Positions 8,371-38,716 of a DNA stretch of 41,943 bases are shown here, piece by piece. Each line of letters begins with the position of its first letter. Within the stretch, counting starts at the first letter, position 1. Source of the stretch: Geminocystis sp. NIES-3709 (GTDB lineage: Bacteria; Cyanobacteriota; Cyanobacteriia; Cyanobacteriales; Cyanobacteriaceae). The notes beneath the pieces were generated by a model that was not told the DNA's origin, did no database searches, and was given only the letters and a program-made list of their open reading frames with translations. The stretch covers positions 1 through 41,943 of the forward strand of contig NZ_AP014822.1 in the NCBI RefSeq assembly GCF_001548115.1, given 5' to 3'. The position numbers were made by a program, and so were the translations under genes.

Positions 8371-9506
8371 GATCTCTTGCAAAATTATAATGAACATAAA
8401 AAGATGATAGGATAAGACAAAATATTAGCAATCGCCTTTAATTTAATTAAAGAAAATAAGTGCCTTTATACAGTTAATCATAATTCTTGCTTATATAATT
8501 CTCAACCTAGGAAAGTAAATACCCATTGGCGATAAAATACACAAATTAATTTACTGGATTCTTTAATATAGTTCTTAAATAATAGCTATGTCTTTTTTCA
8601 CTATTTCATAGTTATAAATTCCCGCAATTAAGTTGAATCTTAACCCAAATCTTTTTCTTTTATTTCTATATTTTTCTGATAGTATTCTAAATATTTTAAG
8701 TTTTCTATTTACATGTTCAATTACGATTCTTTGTCGATTTAACTCTCTATTTTTTCTTTTTTCTTCTTGGGTTAACTTTCTTTTTTTTGTTTTCTTTTTT
8801 GGTATTTCGCTTAATTTATGAATTTTTTCTATACCTTGATAACCTTTGTCTACTAAACACTTTATTTTTTCACTTAATGGTAATCTACTGTTTTTAAAAA
8901 TTTTAAAATCATGTTCTCTTCCTCGTCCATTTACATAACAAATTATTTCCAAGGTATCTTTATTAACTACTAATTGTGCTTTAAATGTATGTTCCTTCTT
9001 TTTGCCACTATAGTAAATTTTTTGTCTTTTTTTTGGTCTTTCGATTGCTATTTCAGTAACATCTATTAATACTGCCTTAATTTCATTCTCTTTTTTTATC
9101 AATTCTTTTTTACCACCTAGGGAAAAATAACCTGATTTGAGCAAGATTTTTTCAATTTTATGAACTGTTCTACAAACCGTTGATTCTGAGATATTCCAGT
9201 ACTCTGATATGTGAAAATAAGTTCGATATTCTCTCAAATATTCCAAGGTTACTAAAATCTGCTCGGACACTGTTAATTTGCTTTTCCTTCCTCTTTTGTG
9301 ATTGTTTTGTTCTTTTTTGACTATTTCTACTAAAAGATTATAGGTTTCTTTTTTTACTCCAAATCTCCTTTTAAACTTTTCTGGCTTTAATTTTTTTATT
9401 CTCTCAAGTTTCATAATTAAATCTTATACTTAAGGTATCCTCCATCGCCCAAAATTATAGATTATTCTGGTTAATCCTATCTCGTATTTAATTTTGCAAG
9501 AGGTCT
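8371..9506 (-). mobile_element. IS5-family insertion sequence in hsdR
   Basis: 1136 bp. The ends carry a perfect 14-bp inverted repeat, CTCTTGCAAAATTA at 8374-8387 and its complement at 9489-9502. Including the outer imperfect bases, the ends read GATCTC... and AGACCTC.... ATTA at 8367-8370 and 9507-9510 is the target duplication (4 bp, or 3 bp if TTA). The element holds one transposase gene on the minus strand (8575-9414) and about 190 bp of non-coding sequence at its left end. Precise excision would restore hsdR. Confidence 0.9.
8575..9414 (-). CDS. IS5-family transposase (DDE_Tnp_4 type)
   Basis: 279 aa, intact, one frame. An N-terminal HTH region (KLTVSEQILVTLEYLREYRT ... YWNISESTVCRTVHKIEKIL) precedes the DDE catalytic domain. 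Asp lies in AVLIDVTEI, Asp in CLVDKGYQGIEK, and Glu in IEHVNRKLKIF followed by basic residues. The single-ORF structure, size and 2-4 bp AT-type target duplication fit the IS5 family (IS1031/IS427-like groups). It catalyses cut-and-paste of the element in which it lies. No sign of damage, so the copy may be active. Confidence 0.93.
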   Translation of the reverse strand: MKLERIKKLKPEKFKRRFGVKKETYNLLVEIVKKEQNNHKRGRKSKLTVSEQILVTLEYLREYRTYFHISEYWNISESTVCRTVHKIEKILLKSGYFSLGGKKELIKKENEIKAVLIDVTEIAIERPKKRQKIYYSGKKKEHTFKAQLVVNKDTLEIICYVNGRGREHDFKIFKNSRLPLSEKIKCLVDKGYQGIEKIHKLSEIPKKKTKKRKLTQEEKRKNRELNRQRIVIEHVNRKLKIFRILSEKYRNKRKRFGLRFNLIAGIYNYEIVKKDIAII

Positions 9507-9510
9507 ATTA

Positions 9511-11967
9511 CTAACCCAAGCCAAAAGAGCCATCCAGAAAAACTTACCCCACGCCATAGCAGTGGATTTGACCAAAGAAAAAGACGTAAGCGGTGCAAAT
9601 ATAATTCTTTCTACCTATGCCACCATGATGAATCGCATCAACAACGACACAGACATTCCCCCCTTATCAAGGGCGGTTAGGGGGGATCAAATTCTCCCTA
9701 ATCCTAATAGGAGAGGGGTTGGGGGCGAGGTTAAAACCTTATCAAGCAAGGTAGGGGGTGAGGTTAACAGGGGGAAAAATGAGGTTAAAACCTTTGGGGT
9801 AGGTTACTTCGACTTAGTAATAATTGACGAAGCTCACCGCAGTATATACAAAAAATATCAAGCCATTTTCAGCTATTTTGATGCCCTCTTAATCGGCTTA
9901 ACCGCCACCCCCAGAAACGAAATTAACCGAGACACCTACCGCATCTTTGACTTAGAAGCAGGAAACCCGACTTTTGCTTATGAATTACAAGACGCTATTA
10001 GTGACGGCTACTTAGTGCCACCCACAGGGATAAACGTACCCTTTAAATTCCTACGACGGGGGGTTAAATACGCTGAACTTACCCCAGAAGAACAACTAGA
10101 ATACGAAGAAAAATTCTATGACGAAGAAACAGGGGAAATCCCCGATGAAATCAACGCCGCCGCCCTCAACCGTTGGTTATTTAATACCGACACCGTTGAT
10201 AAAGCCTTAGAAATCCTCATGGATAGAGGCTTAAAAGTTAATCAAGGAGATCGCCTCGGCAAAACCATTATCTTTGCCAGAAATCATAAACACGCCGTAT
10301 TTATTGAAGAGAGATTTAACTATAACTATCCCCATTTTCAAGGCAAATTTGCCCGTATTATCGACAGTCATGACAATTATGCCCAAAGTATCCTCGATGA
10401 GTTCTCAGACCCCGAAAAAGAGCCAATAATCGCCATTTCTGTGGATATGTTAGACACAGGGGTGGACGTGCCAGAAGTAGTCAACCTCGTCTTTTTCAAA
10501 CCCGTTTACTCCGAAGTCAAATTTAACCAGATGATAGGTAGGGGTACTCGTTTATGCCCTAACCTATTTGCCATAGGTACAGACAAAACCGAATTTCTCG
10601 TTTTTGACCTTTGTGATAACTTTGCTTACTTTAGTCAAGAAATAAACGAAAATAACACTCCTGCCACAATGGGGCTTACCAGTCGTTTATTAAAGGCGAA
10701 ATTAGAACTACAAGAATATTTACTAACCATTGAGAATATTAAGCCCAACCAAGATAGTAACGGCGATAATAGTCTAGTAAATCAAATTAATAACCCCGCA
10801 AATCTTGAAAAAGAGACAAATTCAGGAAATAAGAGCAGATATTCCCTCAAAGAACCTGAAATTAATCCCTATTCCTTAGATAAGAGAAAAAATGAGGATT
10901 TTAGTGAGAAAAATGGAGAAACAGCACCCGTAAAAAATTTAAGAGAGAAACTACTGGATGAGTTACATAACCATGTCAATGCCATGGAAGAGAATAACTT
11001 TTTAGTTCGTCGTCACCTGCAACAAGTAGAAACCTTTAAACAGAGGGATAAATGGGATAAATTGACCCCTGAAGACAAAGAAATAATCCTCAATACCCTT
11101 ATTCATCTACCCTCTAGTATTCCCCCCGAAAATCCCCGTATCAAAAACTTTGACCTCCTCTGCCTCAAAGTACAACTGGCAATACTCACCAACAGTAATA
11201 ACTTTGAAACCCTCAGAGACAAAATCAGGGACTTATTGGGGCGTTTACAGGAGAAACAAACCATCCCCGCCGTCAAAGCAAAATTAGAGCTAATTGAAGA
11301 GGTACAATCAGAAAACTGGTGGCAAGATATTAAAGTGGAACAAGTGGAGGAAATGAGGCTCAACCTCAGAGATTTTGTCACCTTCATTGATAAACAGGAT
11401 GAAGGGATTATTTATACTGATTTTGCCGACGAATTGGGAGAGATAGAAGAAATCGATATTCCCCAACGACAAACGGGATTTAGTCCTTACCAATACCAGA
11501 AGAAAGTAGAAGCCTATATCAGAGCTAATCAAAACCACATAGTCATCGCTAAGTTAAGAAAAAATTTACCCCTTACCGAAGGAGATTTGAAGGAATTAGA
11601 AAAGATGTTATTCTCCTCAGAAGAGATCGACTCCAGGGAGAAATTTGAGTTAGTGTATGGCAAAAAAAACCTCAAGAGTTTTATTCGTGAACTGGTAGGA
11701 TTAGACAGAAACACGGCTAAAGAAGCCTTTAGTAAATATTTAGAAAAGAATAACCTCACCGCCAACCAAATCCGCTTTATTGACCAGATTATCAACTGGT
11801 TAACCAAACATGGAATAATGAATCCCCATCTGTTATACGAGCCTCCCTTTACCGACATTCATACCGAGGGATTAGACGGGGTATTTAACGACGAAGATGC
11901 GGATAATATCATTGAGATTGTACGTTGCTTTAATGAAGGAGTAGAGGCAACCTTTAACTCGGCGTAG
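9511..11967 (+). pseudogene. hsdR: HsdR restriction subunit, 3' part
   Basis: 818 codons that continue the interrupted hsdR from LTQAKRAIQKNLPHAIAVDL. A GTG at 9562 could start an orphan fragment, but it is internal to the original gene. It contains helicase motif II DEAH (9826-9837), motif III-like GLTATP, the second RecA domain (GKTIIFARNHKHA ... SVDMLDTGVDVPEV, then motif VI MIGRGTRL) and the long C-terminal HsdR domain ending NEGVEATFNSA. Near its start is a 30-residue stretch made from dispersed repeats (9655-9745). Without the N-terminal nuclease domain and Walker A, this piece cannot restrict. Confidence 0.9.
9655..9745 (+). repeat. Two adjoining dispersed repeats translated in frame in hsdR
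   Basis: A degenerate copy of the CCCCCCTTAT..AAGGG..GG repeat (IPPLSRAVRGDQ) is followed by a second type, CTAATCCTAATAGGAGAGG and GTTGGGGGCGAGG (NPNRRGVGGEV). A partial third copy of the GGCGAGG unit follows at about 9747-9790. Together they add roughly 45 residues in a loop before the DEAH motif without breaking the frame. Confidence 0.65.
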
Positions 11968-21344: not shown

Positions 21345-22037
21345 CTAAGATAAGACATTTTGAGTTATATTGCAGTTAGGACAGTAATACTTGAGATGTT
21401 GAATAAGCTCATTTCCAGCATCCATAAGTTGTTTGATTGAATATGGAGGAAGTATATCTAACACGAAATAGGCATTACTGGTATTTATTGTTAAGGCTGT
21501 GCGATGGCATTGTCGCCAGTTCCATCGACGGCAAGTAACTCCAGAATTATCAGCCCAGATCACTTCGTTTGGTTTAGGATTTTCGATAATTTCTTGACCA
21601 TTTTGATAAGTGATAAAATGCTCTTTTCCCGTTGCAATTTGTAGCGTTAAGTCACTGGTTAGTTGATCTAAATCTTCACCACCAATGGGAATGAGATGAT
21701 TAATACTAACTGCATTATATATATCTACGAAACGATTGATAGTTGGTAAATAATTACCCTTGAGGGTACGACTTAAAAGAGCTTCTACCGAGCATAAATA
21801 TTTACTAGAGTTTGCACCAAAACCTTTAAAAACCTCTCGCCAAGCGGCAATATGACTATGGGAAGAAGGTTTGTCATTCCCGAAGATTTGACGTTGTTTT
21901 TCTTCTGCTTGTCGTAATAATTTAGTGCTGTAATCATCACTAGGAGCGTTAATTAACCCATTAGCGTATATTATCAAAGCAGAATAATTTGGGTATTGTT
22001 CTTGAATTTGAGGATGTATGTTGAGTTTGTAATTCAT
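21345..22037 (-). CDS. Stand-alone B3/B4 domain protein (tRNA-editing-like)
   Basis: 230 aa from ATG 22037 (a TTG six bases upstream is weaker). It matches the B3/B4 domain known from the beta subunit of phenylalanyl-tRNA synthetase and from free-standing COG3382-type proteins. Key stretches are SSHSHIAAWREVFKGFGANS, YLCSVEALLSRTLKGN, PTINRFVDIYNAVSINHLIP IGGEDLDQL, and EVIWADNSGVTCRRWNWRQC HRTALT. In the synthetase this domain removes wrongly attached amino acids; free versions are thought to act in trans or bind unusual amino acids. It is the second gene of the left outward operon, 112 bp after the metalloprotein gene. A second editing-type protein (32933) sits in the sister operon. Confidence 0.85.
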   Translation of the reverse strand: MNYKLNIHPQIQEQYPNYSALIIYANGLINAPSDDYSTKLLRQAEEKQRQIFGNDKPSSHSHIAAWREVFKGFGANSSKYLCSVEALLSRTLKGNYLPTINRFVDIYNAVSINHLIPIGGEDLDQLTSDLTLQIATGKEHFITYQNGQEIIENPKPNEVIWADNSGVTCRRWNWRQCHRTALTINTSNAYFVLDILPPYSIKQLMDAGNELIQHLKYYCPNCNITQNVLS

Positions 22038-22149
22038 TGTCAATGTTTTTCTTTACATTAAATGGGTGAATAGGTTGGGAGAGATAAAAAGTAATTCTCT
22101 CCTGCAAATAAGCTCAGAATTTCTGTAGTAATTTTCTGTTGTTGTTCCT

Positions 22150-23370
22150 TTAACGAAGTCCTTTCCAAAGATCTCGACAAGTACTTATAACTAACCCATC
22201 AAAAATCTCTTTTGTTGCGGGATGAACTTTGAGAACAGAACTGTAAAGTGCAAAAATACCTTGAGGATATTTTAGATTTAATTCTTGACGAGTAAGGGAA
22301 ATAGCTTCAACTCGATGAAGTTCAACAGCTTTCAATAAACCTTGATAAGAACAATCTCGCAGAGCTAGTTGACCTTTTTTAATGTAGATAACTCCATTAC
22401 GAAAAAGACTATCTAAAGTAAGCAATGCACAATTAACATCAGCATCTCTTTCTAAACCACCATTACGATGAGCATCTAAAGCAAAGCGGACGCATAAGTT
22501 AACTGCTATGATTTTGCCCACTAAATCCGAAGGTAATAACCGAGAAGCTAGTTCAAATTCGACTCCATCAGAACGCCATTCTTCAACGCAACCATACCAA
22601 TAATTAGGGAATAAATTATGTTTAATTTTATAGTCAAGTCCTAATCCAGTAGCATGACCAAAATCATGAATTTGATATTCTAGGTGACGATTATTGTTAG
22701 CCGTCGGTTCTTCTATTAACGGTGTTGAAAGTAGTTGAGCTGTCTCAGGTTCAAAAATACGTTCGATACATAGCAAACCAGATTCGATAAATCTTTGTCG
22801 TTGTTCGCTAATGTCATTTAAAGCAGGACCTTTTGAGTTATTGCAAAAATCCCAACCATTGGGTACTATAAATGCTTCTCCTGTTTCCCCGCCAACATTA
22901 CCACAGGAAGCGATGCGATTAAATGGCAAAATTACGGGTAGAGGTTGTCTTAATTCACCAAATAATTCTTTGATTTTGGATTCTACTTTATCCTCTGAAA
23001 GCTCAGAAGTAGGAATCATAATTTGACCAAAAATGGCGGTTAATTTTACTACCTCTTTAGCTTCTCGTTTAACACGATAAGGAGCAATTATGAGAAAATA
23101 ACCATTTTCGCCTATGAATTTCTCTTGTTCAAAGCCATCAGTTAACAAACCCCAGTTTTGTCTTTTTAAGGCTTGAGCCAATTGGAGAACCCATAATCTA
23201 GGTAATTCATGAGATTTAACTGCTAACTGATATAGCATTTCTACCGCTTCTTTTTGATGTGAGTTTTGAATACAGTGAATAATTTCTTTGATTAATTGAA
23301 TTTCCTTGCTGGTAGTAATTTGATAATCAGAGAAATTTTGATTATTTTGTTGAAAACGGACAGTAACCAT
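22150..23370 (-). CDS. Metalloenzyme-like protein with HxxxH and EExRxD motifs
   Basis: 406 aa, family not securely identified (DUF6014 is my tentative recollection). The telling block is EYQIHDFGHATGLGLDYKIK (His 235, His 239) followed about 25 residues later by CVEEWRSDGVEFELA (Glu 263/264, Asp 268). The HxxxH plus EExR[AS]D pairing resembles zinc sites of M49/zincin-like hydrolases, so a metal-dependent hydrolase is a fair inference. Before it are a helical N-terminus and a PVILPFNRIASCGNVGGETG EAFIVPNGWDF segment. No signal peptide. It is transcribed outward from the left arm behind a TTGACA promoter and a ~190-nt structured leader shared with the oxygenase gene at 31337. Its first codons (MVT-VRFQQN) also resemble that gene's. 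Confidence 0.75.
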   Translation of the reverse strand: MVTVRFQQNNQNFSDYQITTSKEIQLIKEIIHCIQNSHQKEAVEMLYQLAVKSHELPRLWVLQLAQALKRQNWGLLTDGFEQEKFIGENGYFLIIAPYRVKREAKEVVKLTAIFGQIMIPTSELSEDKVESKIKELFGELRQPLPVILPFNRIASCGNVGGETGEAFIVPNGWDFCNNSKGPALNDISEQRQRFIESGLLCIERIFEPETAQLLSTPLIEEPTANNNRHLEYQIHDFGHATGLGLDYKIKHNLFPNYWYGCVEEWRSDGVEFELASRLLPSDLVGKIIAVNLCVRFALDAHRNGGLERDADVNCALLTLDSLFRNGVIYIKKGQLALRDCSYQGLLKAVELHRVEAISLTRQELNLKYPQGIFALYSSVLKVHPATKEIFDGLVISTCRDLWKGLR

Positions 23371-23560
23371 AGCTATAATGCTCCTAGATATAAATTTAAT
23401 TTGAAATCTAGTTTTGTTGATTGCTACGTTGAATCCTGCTCAAAGAGAGAAAAAAAAAAGATCAGGAAACAAGTAACACATCAGTAAGATATTGGTCGGC
23501 AAACCATATATCTAATTAAAGAGCCTTGTTATTCAATGTTCAAGGCTTAGCTAGATTCTT
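23371..23560 (-). ncRNA. Structured 5' leader RNA (copy B), candidate riboswitch
   Basis: Between the promoter at 23567-23595 and the ATG at 23370. A closing stem ATCTAG (23551-23556) pairs with CTAGAT (23406-23411). Inside are a hairpin GCCTTG/CAAGGC, a second AGATAT..GGT(TTGCCG)ACC.ATATCT (23487-23513) and a CCTG/CAGG hairpin with a U-rich loop. All four elements recur, with changes that keep pairing, in the leader of the gene at 31337. This argues for a selected RNA structure that senses something common to both operons. Confidence 0.6.
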
Positions 23561-23566
23561 ATGTTT

Positions 23567-23595
23567 ATAATATACATTTTTTTTTAAACTGTCAA
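23567..23595 (-). promoter_or_regulatory. Sigma70-type promoter of the left operon
   Basis: On the minus strand TTGACA (23595-23590), 17-bp spacer, TATTAT (23572-23567). The initiation point would fall just before the leader's closing stem. The promoter of the right operon is at the same relative place. Confidence 0.75.
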
Positions 23596-24001
23596 CTATC
23601 TTGTTGATTTTTTTTTTAGCTAATTCAAGTTAATATTATCTGAGCACAATCATTAAAAATTTTTAGTTAGTTAAGGTTAATCGAAGTTAATTAAAGTTAC
23701 TTTAAATCTTTATAAATTATTCATAGCATAGCTTTCAAGATTTTATTTTAATCTTAAATAAATTTAATTAAGGTTAATTGAAGATTAATAATTAATTTAA
23801 AAATAATTGAAAGTTAAATAAAGTTAATTAAGGTTAAAGGTAGTGAATTAAAGTTATTTTTTTTACTATTTATATATCATTTTATTTGAACATTTTTATG
23901 CAGTTTAAAACCAATAATTAACAAAACTTAATATTGAAAAAAATATTCTCTAAGTAAACCACCAGCATTAAATAATAAGAGTTGGAAGGGTTTAATTAAC
24001 G

Positions 24002-24210
24002 ATCGCTCTAAGCCAAAATTTACCAAATCGTTTGACAGGAGGCTTAACAAGACAGTGGGGAAATAAACCTCTAAATACTTTTGGCAAGGCATTGGAAGCG
24101 TTTCGTACGGCAGTGTCTTTTCGCTTTTTTCAATGGTAAAAAGACAACGTAGAAGTATTTAGCTTATATAAAGCTAGTTTGGGGTTTATTCGATCCTCAA
24201 TTTTTGTTTA
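24002..24210 (+). pseudogene. Transposase C-terminal remnant (IS4-like)
   Basis: Reads LPNRLTGGLTRQWGNKPLNT then FGKALEAFRTAVSFRFFQW, an in-frame stop at 24137, then KDNVEVFSLYKASLGFIRSS IFV and stop. The LTGGL ... ALEAFRTA..FRF.QW ... KASLG ending is familiar from cyanobacterial IS4-type transposases. No start and an internal stop, so a fossil. It indicates that the space between the arms was hit by an IS in the past. Confidence 0.55.
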
Positions 24211-24300
24211 AGTACCGTTAGTAAAAAATCTTAATATTTATTTTATTAATGACTTTCTATTTGGCTAAATAACCTATTTAATCAATAAAAATGCTAGTTA

Positions 24301-24360
24301 AAGTTAAGTAAAGTTAATTGAAGTTAATTGAGGTTAATTGAGGTTAATTGAGGTTAATAA
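24301..24360 (+). repeat. Six tandem decamers (AAGTTAATTG type)
   Basis: Six consecutive 10-bp units: AAGTTAAGTA, AAGTTAATTG twice, AGGTTAATTG twice, AGGTTAATAA. Looser versions of the same unit fill 23667-23860 and 30840-31090 in the arms. The 10-bp period places every unit on the same face of the helix, as for arrays bound by a repeating protein. Confidence 0.75.
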
Positions 24361-24498
24361 AAAGCTATTAAAATAGCATTGACAAAGTAGGTGTAGCTAT
24401 CTATAATAAAAAGATAGTAATCTAAATAAAGAAGATTTTTAACTTCTAAAAAAAATGTTTACTTCTTACTATTTATTCTCAAACAGATCTTGTGAATT

Positions 24499-24549
24499 AA
24501 TATCAATTATTCATAGGATATTATATATAATCTATGAATAATTGATATT
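24499..24549 (+). promoter_or_regulatory. 18-bp perfect inverted repeat before the small gene
   Basis: AATATCAATTATTCATAG (24499-24516) is exactly complemented at 24532-24549 around a 15-base AT loop, 23 bp before the ATG at 24573. The stem lacks GC pairs, so an operator or an RNA hairpin controlling translation is more likely than a strong terminator. Confidence 0.6.
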
Positions 24550-24572
24550 ATTTTTATTAAGATTTATCTTTT

Positions 24573-25275: not shown

Positions 25276-28005
25276 ATGCCTTTTAATAATAAAAATATGA
25301 TTTACACAAATTCAAAAGAAAAAAATGATTATTGTTTTGACGATACAGAAATTATAATCAATACTAAAGAAACTATCGATAGAGATTTGATCCCATTTCT
25401 ACTTGAGCCAGAAAAAACTCTTCAAAAAATAGAAGAGGAAGCTAAAAAAGAGAATACTTCAGCTCAGGAGATAATTGCTTATTATCTAGAAAAAGGTATT
25501 AAATCTGAAACAGAAATAGATGATTTTAATGAATTATTACGATATAAAAAAGGTTTATATTCTAAAAAACAAGACCAACAAATTCCGAGAATTTTAATTG
25601 ATGCTAGTCTTATTCAAGACGTTTTATTGAAACGAGATTCTGTTTTTTTAAAAAACGGACAAAAAATATTAGATCTCGTTTTAAATGACAAGATAAGTGG
25701 ATATATCTCTGAAATAGGCTTACGAGACATTTATGATAATACCCTCAAAATGAACGGTAAAGAAGATGCAAATTTTTCAATGATAAAATTATTAAACTAT
25801 TTTTATATTTGCAATATTTCTCCAGAAATTATCGAAAAAGCTCATTTTTATAAGACAATAAGTATTGAAAGTGCCATTAAAATAGAATGTGCTAAACGAG
25901 ATAATATTGACATTATTATTACTCTCCGAGAAAAAGACTTTCTTGCTCATGATTGGAAGAAAAATGTTTTGAATCCTAGTCAATTTCTTAGCGAATATGA
26001 TAAACATCAATTTCAAAAATCTTCTTCAGAGGAATTAGATAAAGAAGTTGAAGATTCATTATCTAGATTAAAACTCAATAAAGAACTATATCCAGAAGAT
26101 TACGCAAAAGAAGAATTATCATTATTTGATGATGAATGGGTAATTCAACATTTTAATGTTTTAACAGCTAAAAATAACATATGTGATGCAACAGTCTTTT
26201 TAGCCAAAAAAGGCGACAAAAAAACCGACGCATTTAGAGCTTGGGATGAAGGTAGTATAGCCGCTTTATCTAGAGCCTTGGATAAAGCAATTAAGGAAAT
26301 AAAAAAAGATCAAGCCATAAAATATACTATTGAAGATATAACAGAACGAGAATTAGAACAAGGATTAGATAGTTCTATTTATGCCTCTGTCACCTTAAAA
26401 TTTGGTAATTCTACAGTAGAAGCCTACCATATTCATAAAGATACAATCAAAGCTCATTTTTATGCTTATGTAAAAGCAATTAACCTCATTTATGATGCTC
26501 AAAAAGATTCCCAAAGTAATAATTATGAAGGAAAAAAACTTATTTCCCTCATAATGCCCGTTAATGAAGATACCTTTATTCAGTTGTATCGACACGGAAG
26601 ATTACTAGGTGAAAAAAAAATGTTAGATTTCCTGAAGATGAATCTCAGAGAAATAAATTTAGTTGGGAAAAAACTATCTGGTATTAATCTTAGTTATTCT
26701 GATTTGACTGATAGTAATCTCGAACATATCAATCTCAGTAACTCTAGTTTAGAATCCTGTCTTTTAGAGAGGGCTAAGTTATTTCATGCTACTTTGAAAG
26801 ATTGTACTTTATTTAAAGCCAATCTCCGAGGTGCAAAGCTAAATAAAGCAATATTATCTAAGAGCAATCTTAGCCGTGCTGATTTAACGGAAGCAGATTT
26901 AGATAACGCCATACTCAAAGAGTGTGATTTAACAAGTGCTAATCTTACCAGTGTAATTTTGAAGGAGGCTATTTTAATTGGTGCTTATTTGAATAAAGCT
27001 AATTTAACTAATGCCGAATTAATAGAAGCTAATTTGACTTCAGCCGATTTAACTAATGTAAATTTAACTGATGCTGACTTAAGTGGTGCTGACTTAAGTG
27101 GTGCTAATTTAACTGGTGCTATCCTCAATAAATGTAATTTAACCAATGCTAATTTAACCAATGCTAATTTAACCAATGCTAATTTAACTGATGCTAAGTT
27201 AAGTAAAGCTAACCTTAGTAAATGTAATTTAACCAGTGCTAATTTAACTGATGCTGAGTTAATTGATGCTGAGTTCAATAATACTAATTTAAGTGATACA
27301 AATTTAACTGATGCTAAGTTAATAAGTAACGAGTCTTCGGAAATTTTTGACTTTGACAAACAACGGCGACAACTTGAAGAAAATTATGCCAATAACCAAT
27401 GGTTTGATCGTTATGAGGAAATAGAGGGTGAAATTTGTTCAGCTATTCGCCAGTGTCGAGAACAAAAAGAACAAACCCTTATAGACCAAGTTTTCAATAT
27501 ATATGAAAAAGGCTCTGCTGAAGAAAAAGAATTTATCTCCTTAGCTGATTTGGATAACCCTAGCGAAGATGACATAGATAAAATGAAATCTTTACTAGAC
27601 AAAATTGATGCCCTAAAACTTTCTTATATATCTTTCAAACTTGCTGATATAAATCTTAATCATCCTTTTGCAAGTAAAAGAAAGCTCACTAAAATTGAAT
27701 GGAATAATCATGCTTTCTTATTTTGTATTTATTACTTTGATAATCCCAATACTAATAAGTTAAATGTATTTTTAAAATTAACCACTTTCTATAGTGATCA
27801 ATGTTTATCTTCAGACTTTAATATGGTTATTAATTTTCCCAGTAACTCACCAGAGAAAAAAAAAGGGCAACTACAAGGGAAATGGAAAACTCAACCATCT
27901 CCAAGAATAGAGCAATTTTTTAACTTGGATAAAAATGATCCTTTTGAGCTAAAAGTTACTTTTAAAAATCAGTCAATCAAGAAAATAAAATTCATTAACA
28001 ATTAA
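25276..28005 (+). CDS. PIN - LeuA-dimer - pentapeptide repeat protein
   Basis: 909 aa. Residues about 45-75 (EPEKTLQKIEEEAKKENTSA QEII) are helical. Residues 105-260 look like a PIN ribonuclease: Asp109 in ILIDASLIQDVLL, Glu in YISEIGLRDIY, then IKIECAKRDNIDIIITLREK D. Residues about 287-410 match the regulatory/dimerisation domain of 2-isopropylmalate synthase (VIQHFNVLTAKNNICDATVF ... EGSIAALSRALDKAI ... GLDSSIYASVTLKFGNSTVE AYHIHKDTIKAHFYAYVKAI N), without any catalytic barrel. Residues about 450-685 are pentapeptide repeats, A[ND]L(S/T)xx, which fold as a right-handed beta helix. The last 220 residues are unassigned. I infer a toxin-like nuclease tied to a small-molecule-sensing domain. 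A CHAT protease follows. Confidence 0.82.
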   Translation: MPFNNKNMIYTNSKEKNDYCFDDTEIIINTKETIDRDLIPFLLEPEKTLQKIEEEAKKENTSAQEIIAYYLEKGIKSETEIDDFNELLRYKKGLYSKKQDQQIPRILIDASLIQDVLLKRDSVFLKNGQKILDLVLNDKISGYISEIGLRDIYDNTLKMNGKEDANFSMIKLLNYFYICNISPEIIEKAHFYKTISIESAIKIECAKRDNIDIIITLREKDFLAHDWKKNVLNPSQFLSEYDKHQFQKSSSEELDKEVEDSLSRLKLNKELYPEDYAKEELSLFDDEWVIQHFNVLTAKNNICDATVFLAKKGDKKTDAFRAWDEGSIAALSRALDKAIKEIKKDQAIKYTIEDITERELEQGLDSSIYASVTLKFGNSTVEAYHIHKDTIKAHFYAYVKAINLIYDAQKDSQSNNYEGKKLISLIMPVNEDTFIQLYRHGRLLGEKKMLDFLKMNLREINLVGKKLSGINLSYSDLTDSNLEHINLSNSSLESCLLERAKLFHATLKDCTLFKANLRGAKLNKAILSKSNLSRADLTEADLDNAILKECDLTSANLTSVILKEAILIGAYLNKANLTNAELIEANLTSADLTNVNLTDADLSGADLSGANLTGAILNKCNLTNANLTNANLTNANLTDAKLSKANLSKCNLTSANLTDAELIDAEFNNTNLSDTNLTDAKLISNESSEIFDFDKQRRQLEENYANNQWFDRYEEIEGEICSAIRQCREQKEQTLIDQVFNIYEKGSAEEKEFISLADLDNPSEDDIDKMKSLLDKIDALKLSYISFKLADINLNHPFASKRKLTKIEWNNHAFLFCIYYFDNPNTNKLNVFLKLTTFYSDQCLSSDFNMVINFPSNSPEKKKGQLQGKWKTQPSPRIEQFFNLDKNDPFELKVTFKNQSIKKIKFINN

Positions 28006-30466: not shown

Positions 30467-30764
30467 CGGCGGAAATAGAAGGTTGGAGCAACCAGGTGCA
30501 ATCAATTCATAAGCACTATAAAAAGTCGTAAAATAAAGCTCGGTTGATAAGAAAGACAAATATTCTCATAACTGGAAAAGATAACTAGAGAATCATAATT
30601 GGTTTAATAATGAACATAAAGCCTATATTTCCATATATTTTGGCTCAGAGCGATCGATATTTAATACTTCCAACTTTGATTTTTTTGATGACAGCGATCG
30701 CTTTTATACCCTTCCCAACTTTTATTCTTCAATGCTAATGACTAACTATAGAATATTTGTTCTA
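30467..30764. other. Gap after the CHAT gene with a solitary MITE-like end
   Basis: GGCGGAAATAGAAGGTTGGA (from about 30470) and GCAACCAGGTGCAA directly after the CHAT stop closely resemble the right end of MITE copy 2. No matching second end is visible nearby. The rest is AT-rich with GCGATCGC at 30690 and no gene. Confidence 0.45.
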
Positions 30765-31112
30765 TTATTAAGTTTTGTTAATTATTAGTTTTAAACTGCA
30801 TAAAAATGTTCAAATCAAACGATATATAAATAGTAAAAAATTAACTTTAATTCACTACCTTTAACCTTAATTAACTTTATTTAACTTTCAATTATTTTAA
30901 AATTAATTATTAATCTTCAATTAATCTTAATTAACTTTATTTAAAATTAAACTAAAATATTGAAAGCGATGCTATAAAAGACTTATAAAGATTTAAAGTA
31001 ACTTTAATTAACTTCGATTAACCTCAACTAACTAACACTTTTAAATGATTATGCTAAGTTAATATTAACTTTAATTAACTTTAAATAAACTTGGAAAAAT
31101 TGACAAAAAAAA

Positions 31113-31141
31113 TTGACATTTAATGTCTAATTTGTTAGATT
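31113..31141 (+). promoter_or_regulatory. Sigma70-type promoter of the right operon
   Basis: TTGACA at 31113-31118, 17-bp spacer, TAGATT at 31136-31141. It aligns exactly with the left-arm promoter. A further TTGACA lies at 31100-31105. Confidence 0.7.
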
Positions 31142-31149
31142 ATAAACAC

Positions 31150-31336
31150 AACAATCTAGTCGAACCTCGAAAATTTAATATTCAAGGCTCATTATCGAGA
31201 TATTTGGTTGGCAGACCAATATCTTACGAGATGCTTACTTATGTCCTGTCGTCTTTCTTTTTCTTTCGGCAGGTTGCAAAGTAGCAATTCAACTAGATCT
31301 AACATTAAATGTTTATCTATTAATGGAGTTTAACAC
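31150..31336 (+). ncRNA. Structured 5' leader RNA (copy A), candidate riboswitch
   Basis: A closing stem ATCTAGT (31154-31160) pairs with ACTAGAT (31292-31298). Within it are a hairpin around AACCTCGA/TTCAAGG, the conserved AGATATTTGGTTGGCAGACC then AATATCT hairpin (31198-31224; loop TGGCAG against TTGCCG in copy B) and CCTGTCG/CGGCAGG with a pyrimidine-rich loop. The ribosome binding site GGAG (31325-31328) lies outside the closing stem, so control by transcription termination or by alternative pairing is possible. Confidence 0.6.
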
Positions 31337-32377
31337 ATGGTTAGCTTACCTGTACGTTTTCCACAAGAAAATCCTGTTTCTATTTCTTATAAGGATTGGG
31401 GTGAAGTGAAATTAAAGCAATGGGAGAAAAAAGCCCAAGAAGTAAGTGGGAATGTTTTCCACGACTCCGACTCTTCCTTATTAATCCCTATTGCTCATGA
31501 TTTAGCCTCTCAATATTTACCTGAGGAATTACGACAGCAGATTAGTCAAATTAACCTGCCCGATGGCTTAACTCACTTGCATCTCAAAGGACTACCTCAA
31601 GATCCTTATTTACCTGCTTCTCCGGTTGACGGTAATCGCCCAATTGGTAAACGGACTTTCGTTAGTGAACTTGTATTGCTAGGAATTATTAGTCACGCAC
31701 TTGAGTCTGAAGTTTTTGCTTATCAAGAGCAAAAACAGGGTGACTTAGTGCAGAATGTAGTACCAATTCAAGGGCTTGAAAAAACCCAGTCCAATGCTAG
31801 TGTCGGAAACTTCGGATGGCACAGTGATGATGCATCGTTCAAACGCCCCTATCGTGCGGAAGGAATTGCTTTATTTTGTCTTCGCAATCAAAGTAAGACT
31901 GTAACTTATTTTGCTGAGGTAGATGACATTATCAAAGCCTTACATCCTATCGATTTGCAAGTGTTACGAGAACCACGCTTCCGAGTACGCACTCCGGAGA
32001 GTTTTAAATTGTACGGTGGAAAGATAGTTTCTTCTGAACCACGTGCGATTATCACTGACGGGGAAGCTGGTGCAGAAATTGCCCTTGCTACTTATAACGT
32101 TGTGCCTGTAGATGACGAAGATGAAGAAGCATTGGATGCCTTATATGCGTTGAAACTCGCATTGCGTACTCCTGTAGCTAAGTCCTTTGTCTTACAACAA
32201 GGAGAGGTTTTAATTATCTCCAATGTCAGAGGTGTTCATGCTCGTGGGCCAATTTTCGGAGGCGATCGCTGGCTGCAACGGTGTTACTTTCGGAAGGATT
32301 TAACTGAGTTACATAAAGTAACTAATTCTAGCCATGATTGCCGAGTGTTTGGTAGTGAAGACTTATTCTTGTTGTAA
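31337..32377 (+). CDS. TauD/VioC-type Fe(II)/2-oxoglutarate oxygenase
   Basis: 346 aa. It resembles the clavaminate synthase-like branch that hydroxylates free amino acids (AsnO, VioC). The iron triad is visible: GNFGWHSDDASF gives His162 and Asp164, and SNVRGVHARGPIFGGDRWLQ R gives the distal His301 and the 2-oxoglutarate-binding Arg. An expected segment, YRAEGIALFCLRNQ, follows the HxD. The reaction would be C-H hydroxylation of an amino acid or a derivative using O2 and 2-oxoglutarate; the substrate is unknown. It heads the right outward operon behind the promoter and leader shared with the gene at 23370. Downstream are a small membrane protein and a YbaK-type editing protein. Confidence 0.88.
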   Translation: MVSLPVRFPQENPVSISYKDWGEVKLKQWEKKAQEVSGNVFHDSDSSLLIPIAHDLASQYLPEELRQQISQINLPDGLTHLHLKGLPQDPYLPASPVDGNRPIGKRTFVSELVLLGIISHALESEVFAYQEQKQGDLVQNVVPIQGLEKTQSNASVGNFGWHSDDASFKRPYRAEGIALFCLRNQSKTVTYFAEVDDIIKALHPIDLQVLREPRFRVRTPESFKLYGGKIVSSEPRAIITDGEAGAEIALATYNVVPVDDEDEEALDALYALKLALRTPVAKSFVLQQGEVLIISNVRGVHARGPIFGGDRWLQRCYFRKDLTELHKVTNSSHDCRVFGSEDLFLL

Positions 32378-32558: not shown

Positions 32559-32750
32559 ATGATTAATAGAACTGAATTAATACAAGAAGCAACCAAAATG
32601 GGTTTAGACATCGATTCTAACTCAATTGATGATTTATGTACCGTTATTAATTTAATCCAAATTATCTTAATTTCTTATCTGGGCTTATTGTTATATGTAG
32701 CCACCATAGTTATTATCGCCTTAGATAAAGGTATTCCCGTAGTTTGGTAA
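32559..32750 (+). CDS. Small single-pass membrane protein
   Basis: 63 aa: a polar N-terminus (INRTELIQEATKMGLDIDSN) and then one long hydrophobic helix (VINLIQIILISYLGLLLYVA TIVIIAL). It starts with MINRTELI and has no recognised family. It lies 181 bp after the oxygenase gene and 182 bp before the YbaK-type gene, same strand. Small membrane proteins like this can be toxins, transporter accessories or uncharacterised. Whether it is expressed is unproven. Confidence 0.55.
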   Translation: MINRTELIQEATKMGLDIDSNSIDDLCTVINLIQIILISYLGLLLYVATIVIIALDKGIPVVW

Positions 32751-32932
32751 ACCTTTATTTGCCATCTCAATTAAGTAATTAGAAGGCGATCGCTTAGTAT
32801 TCTTTTACTGCTCATTATTTAATAGTAGTAGAAACTCGATCGCTTTTTAACTAAAATTTTGCACCTTGAGTCAAACATCTTTTTTCATTGCCGTTAAATA
32901 TTACTGCACATATTATCCATTGGTAACAAAAT

Positions 32933-33478
32933 ATGACTATTACAGTTGACTTAACTCAACCAACACAAGCCACAGACAAAATTATCGCTTTATTCCAAAA
33001 TTCTGATATTGACTATAAACATATTCACCATGATGAATGTCGCACCTCTGAAGAAAGCCAAAAAGCCCGTGCCGAAGGTGGGGCTGGTATAGTAATTGGT
33101 GCTAAAGCTATCTTAATGAAAATTGATTTGAAACAAACAGAAAGTCAATTTTGGCTTTTTGTACTTGCGGGGGATAAGTCCATTGATTCTAAATCCTTGA
33201 AGAAGTCTCTAAAACAAAAATTTAGTGATTTCAAGAAATTTCGTTTTTCCACTGCGGAAGAAATGGCAGAAGTTACTAACGGTTTACAGCCCGGCACAAT
33301 GCCACCTTTTGGCAAACCAATTTTTGCAGACATAGCCCATTTATTTATTGATCGTAGCTTATTAAACCATGATGTGGTTGGTTTTAATGCCGCTTGTTTG
33401 ACTCAATCTTTAGTTATTCCTACAAAAGATTATATCAAGGTAGCTCACCCCACTGATTTTTTTGATTTTTGTGCTTAG
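32933..33478 (+). CDS. YbaK/ProX-type tRNA-editing domain protein
   Basis: 181 aa. The fold is that of the bacterial prolyl-tRNA editing domain and its free-standing relatives, which hydrolyse misacylated tRNA. Matching stretches are YKHIHHDECRTSEESQKARA EGGAGIVIGAKAILMKID, WLFVLAGDKSIDSKSLKKSL, RFSTAEEMAEVTNGLQPGTM PPFG (the GxxPPFG motif) and LFIDRSLLNHDVVGFNAACL. The lysine of the GAKA segment corresponds to the usual conserved Lys. It probably deacylates tRNA charged with a wrong or unusual amino acid, or acts on a free derivative. Its presence in the oxygenase operon, with a B3/B4 protein in the sister operon, suggests protection of translation from a modified amino acid. Confidence 0.88.
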   Translation: MTITVDLTQPTQATDKIIALFQNSDIDYKHIHHDECRTSEESQKARAEGGAGIVIGAKAILMKIDLKQTESQFWLFVLAGDKSIDSKSLKKSLKQKFSDFKKFRFSTAEEMAEVTNGLQPGTMPPFGKPIFADIAHLFIDRSLLNHDVVGFNAACLTQSLVIPTKDYIKVAHPTDFFDFCA

Positions 33479-34630: not shown

Positions 34631-37600
34631 TCACATTTTTACATTATCATCTATACCCTCAAAAACCATTGCACTAAGATTAATAGATAAATCTGCTAGA
34701 CGATCGTCAAATAAGGGTGAGACTGCCCATAAAAGCCTAGAAGCCATATAATAAGGCAATTCTAAACCTTTTACTACTTCTAAAAATCCACTTACTCCCT
34801 TTTCTTTAATGTTGTCCATAACTATTTTAATTAGGTGTTGTGGATTGTCTTTCATTTGGTATTCTGACCAATGAATTTCACCCCCCGTTTTGTCAACTTC
34901 TCCTATATAAGACTTTAATAGGGAAAGTTGACAAAATATAAATTCTTTCCAAGTGAGTCCTAACCCTTTCACTGCCTTACTTATAGCCTGTTTTGTTAAG
35001 TTTAGGGCTTCTCCCACGGTTTCACAGGTGGCTTTCACTCCTGATTTAATTAACGATACAACGGTGGCTTTTATTTTTGCTATGGTACGATCCCCTTTGC
35101 TTCCTAATTCGGGGGATAAAATAACCCCGTCCACTTCCTTATACTCCAATCCCATTTCTTTCAGGTAGGATAAATCTTCATTAGTTGTTAAATAGAACTG
35201 ATGTATTATTTTATCTTTAAAATGTTGGGCTCGCGATCGTCCTAATCCTTGCATCCTCAATTCATAAATTTTTTGCAAATAGTATTGTTCAAAGGTGGGA
35301 GAATTATCTCTGTTACTAAATAAAATATTGTATTCTCGTTGAACAGCACCGATATTAATATAAGGAGTGCCTACAAAAATTATTGCATCATAACCTAATA
35401 GTTCATTTGTCCCTCTGTCGTGTTTGCCATACCAGTAGGGAGTATTGAGGTTTTTGGCATAACGTTTCAATGTCATTACTGCTATTTTCTTATGGGGGTT
35501 TTGGGCTTTAATTAAGTCAATTCCCGTTTTTGCTCGATCGATGGCTTCCGTTGACCATTCATTGCTTCCTAAGCCTTGAATATCGATATTAAAGACTTTG
35601 AGGTTATCTAGGAATACTTTTTCATTTTGGATGGTGACAAGGGGCTCGTCGCAAATACTGAAAATTGCTTTTACTTGGGTAGCGGTGGCGGTAGCATCCA
35701 TGAACAAATTAAATTTACTCAGTTTAGCTAAATTTGAGTAAGTCTCATTGTAGGAAGAAACGCTTAAAACCCATTGAGTATTATTCTTTTTGCTTATTTC
35801 TTGAGTATGAGTATTATTCTTTTGGGTTATTTCTTGAGTATGAGTATTATTCTTTTGGGTTATTTCTTGAGTATGAGTATTATTCTTTTTGCTTATTTCT
35901 TGAGTATGAGTATTATTCTTTTTGCTTATTTCTTGAGTATGAGTATTATTCTTTTTGCTTATTTCTTGAGTATGAGTATTATTCTTTTTGCTTATTTCTT
36001 GAGTATAAGTATTATTCTTTTTGCTTATTTCTTGAGTATAAGTATTATTCTTTTGGGTTATTTCTTGAGTATAAGTATTATTATTTTGGGTTATTTCTTG
36101 AGTATAAGTATTATTATTTTGGGTTATTTCTTGAGTATAAGTATTATTATTTTGGGTTATTTCTTGAGTATAAGTATTATTATTTTGGGTTATTTCTTGA
36201 GTATGAGCATTATTATTTTGGGTTATTTCTTGAGTATGAGCATTATTATTTTGGGTTATTTCTTGAGTATGAGCATTATTATTTTGGGTTATTTCTTGAG
36301 TATGAGCATTATTATTTTGGGTTATTTCTTGAGTATGAGCATTATTATTTTGGGTTATTTCTTGAGTATGAGCATTATTATTTTGGGTTATTTCTTGAGT
36401 ATGAATATTATTCTTTTTGGTTATTTTTTGGGTGCTTAATATTGAGGTAGGATTGAGGGCAAAAATAGCTTCTAAAAGGTGATAAGGATTTATTGGCAAT
36501 GATTCTACGTTGTCCATGAGTTCACTTCTTTTGTGGTTTCTAACTTCTTTTTCTTCCTGTCTTCTTTTTTCTTTAAATTGATTAGAAACGTGTTTTACTT
36601 CCTCGAATGAGAAGTTAGTATTAGGCAATGTTTCTTCTAATTTCGGATCTAGGAATTGAACTAGGGATAAGTATTCATCACTATTTAATTCAGGAAGCTC
36701 AGGCATATTTTCCTTAATAATGTTGTGAGGCAATCCAAAATATTTTGAGGCACTTTCTATATATTGCCGTCCGTTTTGAGGATCAATAATACCTATTAAC
36801 CAAGTGGCAACGTTAATTATTTGGTCTTTCTTTTTACCTTGAATAACGCTATCATCAGCTTGTAATAGTTTGATGATTAAATCTTTTAATTCCTTGGTAG
36901 TGTAATGATATTCGTTGATAATAGGTAAAGTGCCAACTTCCTCCCATACCAAGCCAAAATGAGGAAATGTCTTCATTAATTTTTCTGTCGTTAATTGTGA
37001 CGGGTGCATCCTTCCGATGCCATACCCCAAAATATTGGCTATGTCTTTTTTCGTTTCATGTTTATATAAGCCCCCCGTAAAGGAACAGGTTTTCTTAAAT
37101 TCACATTTCTGACAGGGTAGATTATCGGTGACAGGATAACCTTTACTTTGAAGGTTGGTAAATGCTGGTTTTAAGTGACAGTTACCGAACGCTATCTTAT
37201 AAATATTTGGGTAGTTTGGATCTTCCCCTTTTAATCGGATTTCTTCATTAGGATCTGCTTTTACTTCTCCGTTAACCATGTATAACCCGTAATAAGTGCG
37301 AGGGGTATTCTCTGGTGCTGTTTTTAACTCAGGATTACTCGGATTTTTGTAGTTGGTGTCCAGATATAAAATGTTATTTAATTTGGAGACAGTGGCACTT
37401 TTCCATCCCCCCGTTTGCGAATTGTCAAAAACGTATTTAACTCCGATTGTCCGTAAATGATTGATAATTTTTGCTCGATCGTTAGGGTAACAATATTTCG
37501 GGGGAATTACGATGGTTGGCTCGTTATTAAAGTCTTCTTTTATGCTCAAGTAGAAAGTATCAGGATTGAAGATAATTTTTTCTTTGCCAAAATCAGGTAT

Positions 37601-38716
37601 TCTTACAACACCATCCTTAAAACCGATTTTGTATTTCTTACTGAGTTTGTTGTATTGTCTGATAAGTTCAGCTTGAAACTCAGAAAACTCATTATGATCA
37701 ACGGCAACTTTTAATTGTTCAATGGTAATAGCAGAATGTTCTTTGAGGTCATTTTGAGTTACGGCAACATACGCTCGATGTCGTGCTTCTTCACCAGCAA
37801 GAATTACTTTTCCGTATTCGGACGGATTGTTAATTATGTTGCCATAGGCTTCGTTATCTTCCTCAATCTTAATAACCTTTTTGGCATCAGGTTTTGTGAT
37901 TATTTCTTTGATTATTTCTTTGAGTTTATCCTTATTTAAGGCGATGCCACTCTCAATTATATTCTTCAGATTTTCGTTATCCGTCTGACTTAAACTTTGA
38001 CTAAATTCAACAAAATCATCACCTTTTTGGGCTTCGGGATAAATTACCTCAATGGGCAATACGATGGCTAATATTCCTAATTCAATGGCGATGGACATTA
38101 ACTCATTAGCTTTGTCTTTTCCTATTTTATCATTATCGGCAATGAAGACTATCCCCTTGTGTACCATTGCCAATTCTGACATTTTTGACTTGATATAGTC
38201 TTTATCTTTAGCTAATGAACCACATACGCAAGTACTAATTAATCCTTTTGATAGGGCATAATCGGCGGCTTTTTCTCCTTCGTGCCATAACATCCATTTA
38301 TTTACGCAGTAAGGAAAATACTCTCTACGATATAGTTGCCATTTACTGCGATCGTCTCCTAATTTCTCAATCCATTTATTTCCTTCTAAGTATTTCGGGT
38401 AAAAATCCTTTTTAGCATATTTGGTTTTCTTATTTTTATCTTGATAAATACTTATTACCCGATCTACATAATGATTCTCACCGTATTTTAATCTTATCGT
38501 ATGCCTTTGAAAATTTCTCCGCGCCATTTCTCGATCGCGCAGCGCCACTTCGTGCTCGTACTCATTTATTCTTTCTCGGAGGCTGTCATCTTTTGCCAAG
38601 TCAGCACAGAAGCCTAGATTAACTTCATCTAAGCTAAGGAATAAGTTAAGGAAATAAGAATCTTCGATTAAGGAATCTTTGATAATCGTTACATTACAGC
38701 CTTTTTCTGCTATCAT
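34631..38716 (-). CDS. Plasmid replication protein (CyRepA1-like; TOPRIM + helicase)
   Basis: 1361 aa, probably the replication initiator. It resembles the large cyanobacterial plasmid Rep proteins called CyRepA1 (Slr7037 of plasmid pSYSA is the type I recall), although it is longer. Residues about 140-240 form a DUF3854/TOPRIM primase-like site (LWHEGEKAADYALSKG with Glu; IVFIADNDKIGKDKA with the DxD). Next is a P-loop-like GVKYVFDNSQTGGWKSATV, a cysteine cluster (GNCHLKPAF ... LPCQKCEFKKTC), a Walker B-like FGLVWEEVGTL, about 20 eleven-residue repeats (ITQNNNAHTQE type), then helicase-like LFMDATATATQV and QGLGRSRAQHF. The C-terminus includes an HTH (TCETVGEALNLTKQAISKAV). The promoter should lie in 38717-38800. 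Elements for antisense control are described separately. Confidence 0.78.
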   Translation of the reverse strand: MIAEKGCNVTIIKDSLIEDSYFLNLFLSLDEVNLGFCADLAKDDSLRERINEYEHEVALRDREMARRNFQRHTIRLKYGENHYVDRVISIYQDKNKKTKYAKKDFYPKYLEGNKWIEKLGDDRSKWQLYRREYFPYCVNKWMLWHEGEKAADYALSKGLISTCVCGSLAKDKDYIKSKMSELAMVHKGIVFIADNDKIGKDKANELMSIAIELGILAIVLPIEVIYPEAQKGDDFVEFSQSLSQTDNENLKNIIESGIALNKDKLKEIIKEIITKPDAKKVIKIEEDNEAYGNIINNPSEYGKVILAGEEARHRAYVAVTQNDLKEHSAITIEQLKVAVDHNEFSEFQAELIRQYNKLSKKYKIGFKDGVVRIPDFGKEKIIFNPDTFYLSIKEDFNNEPTIVIPPKYCYPNDRAKIINHLRTIGVKYVFDNSQTGGWKSATVSKLNNILYLDTNYKNPSNPELKTAPENTPRTYYGLYMVNGEVKADPNEEIRLKGEDPNYPNIYKIAFGNCHLKPAFTNLQSKGYPVTDNLPCQKCEFKKTCSFTGGLYKHETKKDIANILGYGIGRMHPSQLTTEKLMKTFPHFGLVWEEVGTLPIINEYHYTTKELKDLIIKLLQADDSVIQGKKKDQIINVATWLIGIIDPQNGRQYIESASKYFGLPHNIIKENMPELPELNSDEYLSLVQFLDPKLEETLPNTNFSFEEVKHVSNQFKEKRRQEEKEVRNHKRSELMDNVESLPINPYHLLEAIFALNPTSILSTQKITKKNNIHTQEITQNNNAHTQEITQNNNAHTQEITQNNNAHTQEITQNNNAHTQEITQNNNAHTQEITQNNNAHTQEITQNNNTYTQEITQNNNTYTQEITQNNNTYTQEITQNNNTYTQEITQKNNTYTQEISKKNNTYTQEISKKNNTHTQEISKKNNTHTQEISKKNNTHTQEISKKNNTHTQEITQKNNTHTQEITQKNNTHTQEISKKNNTQWVLSVSSYNETYSNLAKLSKFNLFMDATATATQVKAIFSICDEPLVTIQNEKVFLDNLKVFNIDIQGLGSNEWSTEAIDRAKTGIDLIKAQNPHKKIAVMTLKRYAKNLNTPYWYGKHDRGTNELLGYDAIIFVGTPYINIGAVQREYNILFSNRDNSPTFEQYYLQKIYELRMQGLGRSRAQHFKDKIIHQFYLTTNEDLSYLKEMGLEYKEVDGVILSPELGSKGDRTIAKIKATVVSLIKSGVKATCETVGEALNLTKQAISKAVKGLGLTWKEFIFCQLSLLKSYIGEVDKTGGEIHWSEYQMKDNPQHLIKIVMDNIKEKGVSGFLEVVKGLELPYYMASRLLWAVSPLFDDRLADLSINLSAMVFEGIDDNVKM
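35777..36437 (-). repeat. About 20 tandem 33-bp repeats inside the replication gene
   Basis: Each 33-bp unit encodes an 11-residue repeat such as ITQNNNAHTQE. Variants occur in blocks: six AH units, then TY units, then ISKKNNTHTQE units, then ITQKNNTHTQE, which suggests expansion by slippage or unequal exchange. The opposite strand is open in two frames across the array, a by-product of the periodicity. Period and spacer-free structure exclude a CRISPR. Confidence 0.95.

Follow-up and report, generated by a model that had tools for sequence, protein, structure and literature searches.

A duplicated control block with a shared repeat array and a putative structured leader RNA precedes two small operons on a Geminocystis contig

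The window, the whole of contig C2 (41,943 nt) of the 4.43 Mb, 12-contig genome of Geminocystis sp. NIES-3709, contains two copies of a control cassette, by which two small operons share an array and a leader; this is the strong result of the analysis. Co-regulation of the operons by this shared cassette is well supported. The main reading, a duplicated two-layer cassette in which the leader is also functional, is given a rough probability of 0.45.

Duplicated block, repeat arrays and promoters

The original prediction was of a riboswitch-like RNA present as two leaders. The second leader copy was recovered by alignment (31139-31319 (+) vs 23385-23571 (-); 146/190 identical, 77%; E 5e-23), and leader DNA matched only these two copies in the genome. 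Likeness extends ~460 nt 5′ of the leader first noted and is highest there; the region first noted is the 3′-terminal part of a longer duplicated stretch (30693-31319 vs 24007-23385; 82% over 640 columns, E 8e-154), composed of a 10-bp direct-repeat array, a promoter and then the leader. The shared block stops 15-18 nt 5′ of both start codons, and the genes downstream of the two copies are unrelated. The main features are:

30693-31319 (+), duplicated block copy A, 82% identical over 640 columns with copy B
23385-24007 (-), duplicated block copy B, from the 640-column alignment; 88% identity over 30693-31089 in the genome search
30841-31090 (+), direct-repeat array copy A (TTAACYTNNN, 10-bp phase), chains of 3, 2, 2 and 2 exact units
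23674-23837 (-), direct-repeat array copy B, chains of 3 and 2 exact units
24298-24357 (-), third array, lacking a leader, 6 exact units
31113-31141 (+), promoter-like TTGACA-17-TAGATT of copy A, 10/12 positions
23567-23595 (-), promoter-like TTGACA-17-TATTAT of copy B, 11/12 positions
24379-24407 (+), TTGACA-17-TATAAT near the third array, a sequence match
31337-32377 (+), Fe(II)/2-oxoglutarate oxygenase of the VioC/GntD group (NCBIfam GntD 1.5e-34, VioC 3.7e-32; PDB VioC 3e-20)
32933-33478 (+), YbaK-like aminoacyl-tRNA editing protein (Pfam tRNA_edit 3.3e-16)
22150-23370 (-), DUF6014 protein (PF19477 1.6e-44) with HxxGH and EEW motifs
21345-22043 (-), stand-alone B3/4 protein, CtdA-like (Pfam B3_4 4.7e-25; plasmid homologues ≤47% identical)

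Identity between the copies varies along the block: 72% at its 5′ end (30690-30770), 92% in the region around array A (30771-31060), 70% in the following segment (31061-31145), 74% in the leader (31146-31298) and 70% in the tail. The leader is therefore barely above the array flanks (70-72%), and its likeness between copies is, by sequence comparison, that of a paralogous copy of the entire control region. This profile (array 92% vs leader 74%) favours a serious alternative, in which control depends on the DNA array and promoter alone and the leader is a passively copied 5′ UTR that is drifting, with an incidental fold. An inverted-repeat mobile element was considered and rejected, the flanking repeat being seen by eye in copy A only.

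Elsewhere on the contig, positions 1-868 match plasmid pDongsha4b of Cyanobacterium sp. (80.5% DNA identity), and the contig is possibly plasmid DNA from a relative in the Geminocystaceae. A type I restriction subunit R (7039-11967) is encoded in two ORFs, which flank a transposase-like ORF on the opposite strand. A 909-aa ORF (25276-28005) has PIN-like, LeuA dimerisation-like and pentapeptide-repeat regions, and ~20 tandem 33-bp units (35777-36440) lie within a minus-strand ORF (34631-38716) for which Pfam gives a weak apolipoprotein-like match alone.

The TTAACYTNNN units are spaced exactly 10 bp apart. A three-unit pattern gave six matches in 4.43 Mb, all on this contig (reversed control, 0); four of the six overlap within the third array. 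Two-unit matches are common elsewhere (40 genome-wide, 13 of them on this contig; control, 21), so that only the longer arrays are distinctive. The repeat pattern also has at least 120 matches in viral contigs. Repeats of the cyanobacterial Pho box are spaced 11 bp apart, from which the exact 10-bp spacing differs. The array is nevertheless similar in having at least three tandem TTAACC/T-like direct repeats 5′ of a promoter, the Pho box (SphR/PhoB) of cyanobacteria being described as at least three tandem 8-bp repeats with consensus CTTAACCT (PMC1906773).

In both copies the start predicted from the promoter-like matches lies just 5′ of P1, the stem closing the leader, although such sites are no commoner than in shuffled sequence (5 vs 4.9 for the copy A stretch; 5 vs 4.5 for B). 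The leader that follows the promoter match at the third array (24379-24572 (+)) holds a long inverted repeat (AATATCAATTATTCATAG..CTATGAATAATTGATATT) and is followed by a 120-aa ORF. This ORF has no Pfam match and is perhaps the gene of the array's regulator.

Genes behind the two copies

The original prediction gave each operon as an enzyme plus an editing-type protein. Both gene pairs are present, but the copy A pair is loose, with 555 nt between the oxygenase and YbaK-like genes vs 106 nt between DUF6014 and B3/4. A strong fold window (32701-32852 (+), z -4.9) lies between the oxygenase and the YbaK-like gene. The oxygenase belongs to the same sequence family as the VioC/GntD arginine-type beta-hydroxylases, but scores far under both equivalog cut-offs (119.8 vs 345; 111.7 vs 418.6), so that a substrate is not implied.

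The DUF6014 protein is perhaps a metalloenzyme, judging from its motifs (by eye, HDFGH here and HEAGH in two relatives). DUF6014 was found in four of 388 class genomes at E≤0.001, three of them above the cut-off and the own genome counted, and a literature search on it found no paper. In one of these genomes (G334) the DUF6014 gene adjoins non-ribosomal peptide synthetase genes, an ABC transporter and an MvdD-like gene, and a nearby 94-aa arginase-family fragment shares 78% identity with the arginase-family protein of the host across 91 aa. The single-sequence fold of DUF6014 was unusable (pLDDT 34.8).

The B3/4 protein is 38-47% identical to its plasmid homologues (182 records). Among four of these loci viewed, two encode a transsulfuration-type PLP enzyme and an SMR transporter close by, a third has ABC transporters, an aminotransferase and a homoserine dehydrogenase, and the fourth has no PLP enzyme, transporter or any of the other named neighbours. 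B3/4 proteins of the CtdA kind are described as deacylating canavanyl-tRNA-Arg, and their genes as often controlled by guanidine riboswitches (PMC10018355). A CtdA would be a stand-alone B3/4 protein near canavanine or guanidine genes; the protein here has the B3/4 domain, and with the PLP enzyme and SMR transporter at two of the four homologous loci it is a candidate CtdA. Together the genes suggest arginine-like substrates, a link that we infer because it is drawn from protein families.

This gene content, and the frequent guanidine-riboswitch control of CtdA-type B3/4 genes in that account (PMC10018355), favour the reading of the leader as a translational riboswitch of a new class, with a guanidino compound or an analogue of arginine as its ligand. 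This is unlikely, as only two copies exist, with no covariation, and neither matches the guanidine classes in Rfam. The host also has a guanidine-I riboswitch elsewhere, the sole RF00442 match in the genome (C1:817799-817922, L216 1501-1624; 75.8 bits, above the cut-off), 31 nt 5′ of an arginase-family ORF; free guanidine is thus an unlikely ligand for the leader, since the host already senses it by a known class. The leaders do resemble the guanidine-I and -IV riboswitches found before CtdA genes in being structured and 5′ of a stand-alone B3/4 gene (PMC10018355), but differ in lacking an Rfam match and a terminator, and copy A precedes another gene pair.

Leader structure and search for relatives

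The predicted leader features are:

31154-31298 (+), structured leader copy A, P1 closing P2, P3 and P4/P5
23406-23556 (-), structured leader copy B, from its fold and the shared stems
31294-31319 (+), stem TAGAT/ATCTA, alternative to P1 in copy A (P1 -43.1, alternative -41.8 kcal/mol)
23384-23411 (-), stem CTAGAT/ATCTAG, alternative to P1 in copy B (alternative -46.8, P1 -45.3 kcal/mol)

The stems described by the original prediction were recovered, one of them in part. The closing stem P1 (ATCTAG/CTAGAT) is in both copies, pairing 31154-31159 with 31293-31298 in A and 23551-23556 with 23406-23411 in B. P3 is the hairpin AGATAT..GGT/ACC..ATATCT with loops TGGCAG and TTGCCG, and P4/P5 is a long arm with a CCTG/CAGG tip enclosing a divergent U-rich loop. 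The GCC/GGC hairpin (P2) forms an uninterrupted stem of 7 bp in copy B, whereas its stem in copy A contains a C-A mismatch. An intrinsic terminator was found at neither copy.

A short ATG-started ORF with four Phe codons lies in the U-rich loop of both copies (31231 MLTYVLSSFFFFRQVAK; 23481 MCYLFPDLFFFSL), as would be expected of leader-peptide attenuation sensing tRNA charging. This is nonetheless very improbable: the ATGs are one alignment column apart with different frames, no clear ribosome site lies 5′ of either, U-rich loops yield Phe codons regardless and there is no terminator.

Both leaders fold better than shuffled sequence (z -3.3 for A and -3.5 for B; 0/200 shuffles as good for either) and rank 14 (A) and 12 (B) against 1394 contig windows, some of which overlap the leaders, which speaks against a merely passive 5′ UTR. 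The opposite strands come 39th and 25th, which is normal for inverted repeats. The alignment fold (-19.75 kcal/mol) was reached by none of 500 column shuffles (-6.4 ± 2.7), and the structure conservation index (0.47) by four of 500. Pairing is also retained above random placement of the substitutions, again contrary to a drifting leader: 40/53 pairs of copy A are kept in B (34.5 ± 2.5 expected; fraction 0.024) and 34/46 pairs of copy B in A (27.5 ± 2.5 expected; fraction 0.005). This retention is modestly above chance, and overall structure is modestly favoured.

The claim that stems are kept while loops drift, offered as a hallmark of structural selection, fared less well. On the fold of copy B changes avoid paired positions (15/89 paired vs 29/83 unpaired, p 0.005; 0/171 circular shifts as low), but on that of copy A there is no such bias (24/105 vs 20/67, p 0.20), as expected were the leader passive. 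A sharper contrast (3/70 paired vs 34/74 unpaired) is biased and was dropped as evidence, the pairs having been picked to fit both copies. Covariation is absent between the two leader copies, also consistent with a passive leader: 33 of the 35 shared pairs are invariant and one has a double change, and 273/500 shuffles scored as high. With two paralogues only, the covariation test here has no power. The argument for structural selection is consequently not supported in its original form, the whole region having been copied, the array being better kept than the RNA and covariation being absent.

The proposal that the leader matches no known cis-regulatory class is supported by the Rfam scans. 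A scan of the whole window against Rfam at gathering thresholds gave no match. At E≤10 copy A had one unrelated match and copy B six, all far below the cut-offs and none to a riboswitch; the guanidine-I riboswitch (RF00442) matched neither leader, nor did T-box at E≤10. Membership of a known class (guanidine-I to IV, T-box) so diverged that Rfam misses it, which gene context alone would favour, is accordingly the most improbable of the readings.

A covariance model (R1) built from both leader copies, which score 178 and 166 bits by construction, found no convincing relative. It gave one match outside the own genome in 388 sampled class genomes (G368; 24.6 bits, E 0.06), one in 15 family genomes (G300; 24.8 bits, E 0.06) and none in 388 sampled order genomes; these samples overlap, and the large ones were searched under stricter filters at which weak matches are lost. 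Both matches are considered noise, since the leader's own reverse strand reaches 23.3 bits. R1 had no match at 19 oxygenase-relative loci, two DUF6014 loci, the Dongsha4 plasmid, two viral stretches or the G350 locus, and the leader is absent upstream of the two DUF6014 relatives. A DNA search of the 388 class genomes gave three matches of 22-29 nt outside the own genome, with no leader around them (by eye). No match was obtained with blastn against plasmids and phages (E≤1), in a protein scan of genome contigs, or with the exact pattern GGTTNGCNGACCANNATCTTAC in genome contigs (the own genome possibly excluded) or viral contigs. At the sensitivity used the element appears, from these sequence searches, confined to this genome, which fits a leader that was merely copied. 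The original prediction was to be judged by covariation among further homologues, which does not apply because none was found.

In having few representatives, little or no covariation and suggestive gene context, the leaders resemble rare orphan motifs (ilvB, sucC-II and potE motifs) described from single-genome surveys (PMC8632094), but differ in being paralogues on one contig, copied with their promoter.

Possible switch mechanism and significance

P1 and the alternative stem are predicted to lie within 1.5 kcal/mol of each other in both copies, a near balance that suits a translational switch and is consistent with a riboswitch. The lack of a terminator at either copy also makes translation the likelier level of control. 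Against a switch, the predicted preferred states are opposite, P1 in A and the alternative in B, and coverage of the ribosome site is incomplete. In copy A the alternative fold brings CUC of the conserved GGCUC into pairing with GAG of the ribosome site, but this site is partly paired whichever state is formed, P1 included. In copy B the 3′ arm of the alternative stem overlaps AG of AGGAG, while GAG stays open in the alternative state (0.91-0.98 unpaired). When the tails are shuffled, 5 nt matching the P1 arm still turn up in 9% of cases for A and 11% for B, and the P1 probability is ≤0.1 in 0.3% (A) and 5% (B). On these predicted folds, that the leader itself is a switch is no more than a fair hypothesis.

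In the two-layer reading, a regulatory cassette of ~640 nt was presumably duplicated within an accessory contig, which would allow joint expression of two operons concerned with an amino acid of arginine-like (guanidino) type. As the first layer, the 10-bp-phased array would bind a regulatory protein whose gene may lie on this contig. As the second, a leader RNA would start just 5′ of P1, which is predicted to close a multi-branched structure and whose 3′ strand could alternatively pair with the ATCTA next to the ribosome-binding site. Stabilisation of the P1-closed fold by a ligand or protein would shift the near-balanced equilibrium and so change translation.

That the leader is a functional cis-acting RNA of some kind is a possibility not far from even, while direct sensing of a small molecule by it is rather unlikely. 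The amino acid-like ligand originally proposed is plausible to the extent that the genes may handle such a compound, and both riboswitch and ligand are putative; for a tRNA as ligand there is no evidence here. The most specific form of the model is quite improbable: a new lineage-restricted translational riboswitch that would sense an arginine analogue or hydroxylated guanidino amino acid and control, from two cassettes and together with a contig-specific array regulator, the hydroxylase, the DUF6014 enzyme and stand-alone editing proteins excluding the unusual amino acid from proteins.

Were the leader a switch, recognition of an unusual amino acid would be coupled both to its metabolism and to the proofreading of tRNA, and the leader would be a lineage-restricted RNA of a sort that surveys requiring many homologues would miss. 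Even if it is not, the cassette would join an arginine-type hydroxylase, a DUF6014 protein and two editing-type proteins in one regulon, and their substrates thereby become testable.
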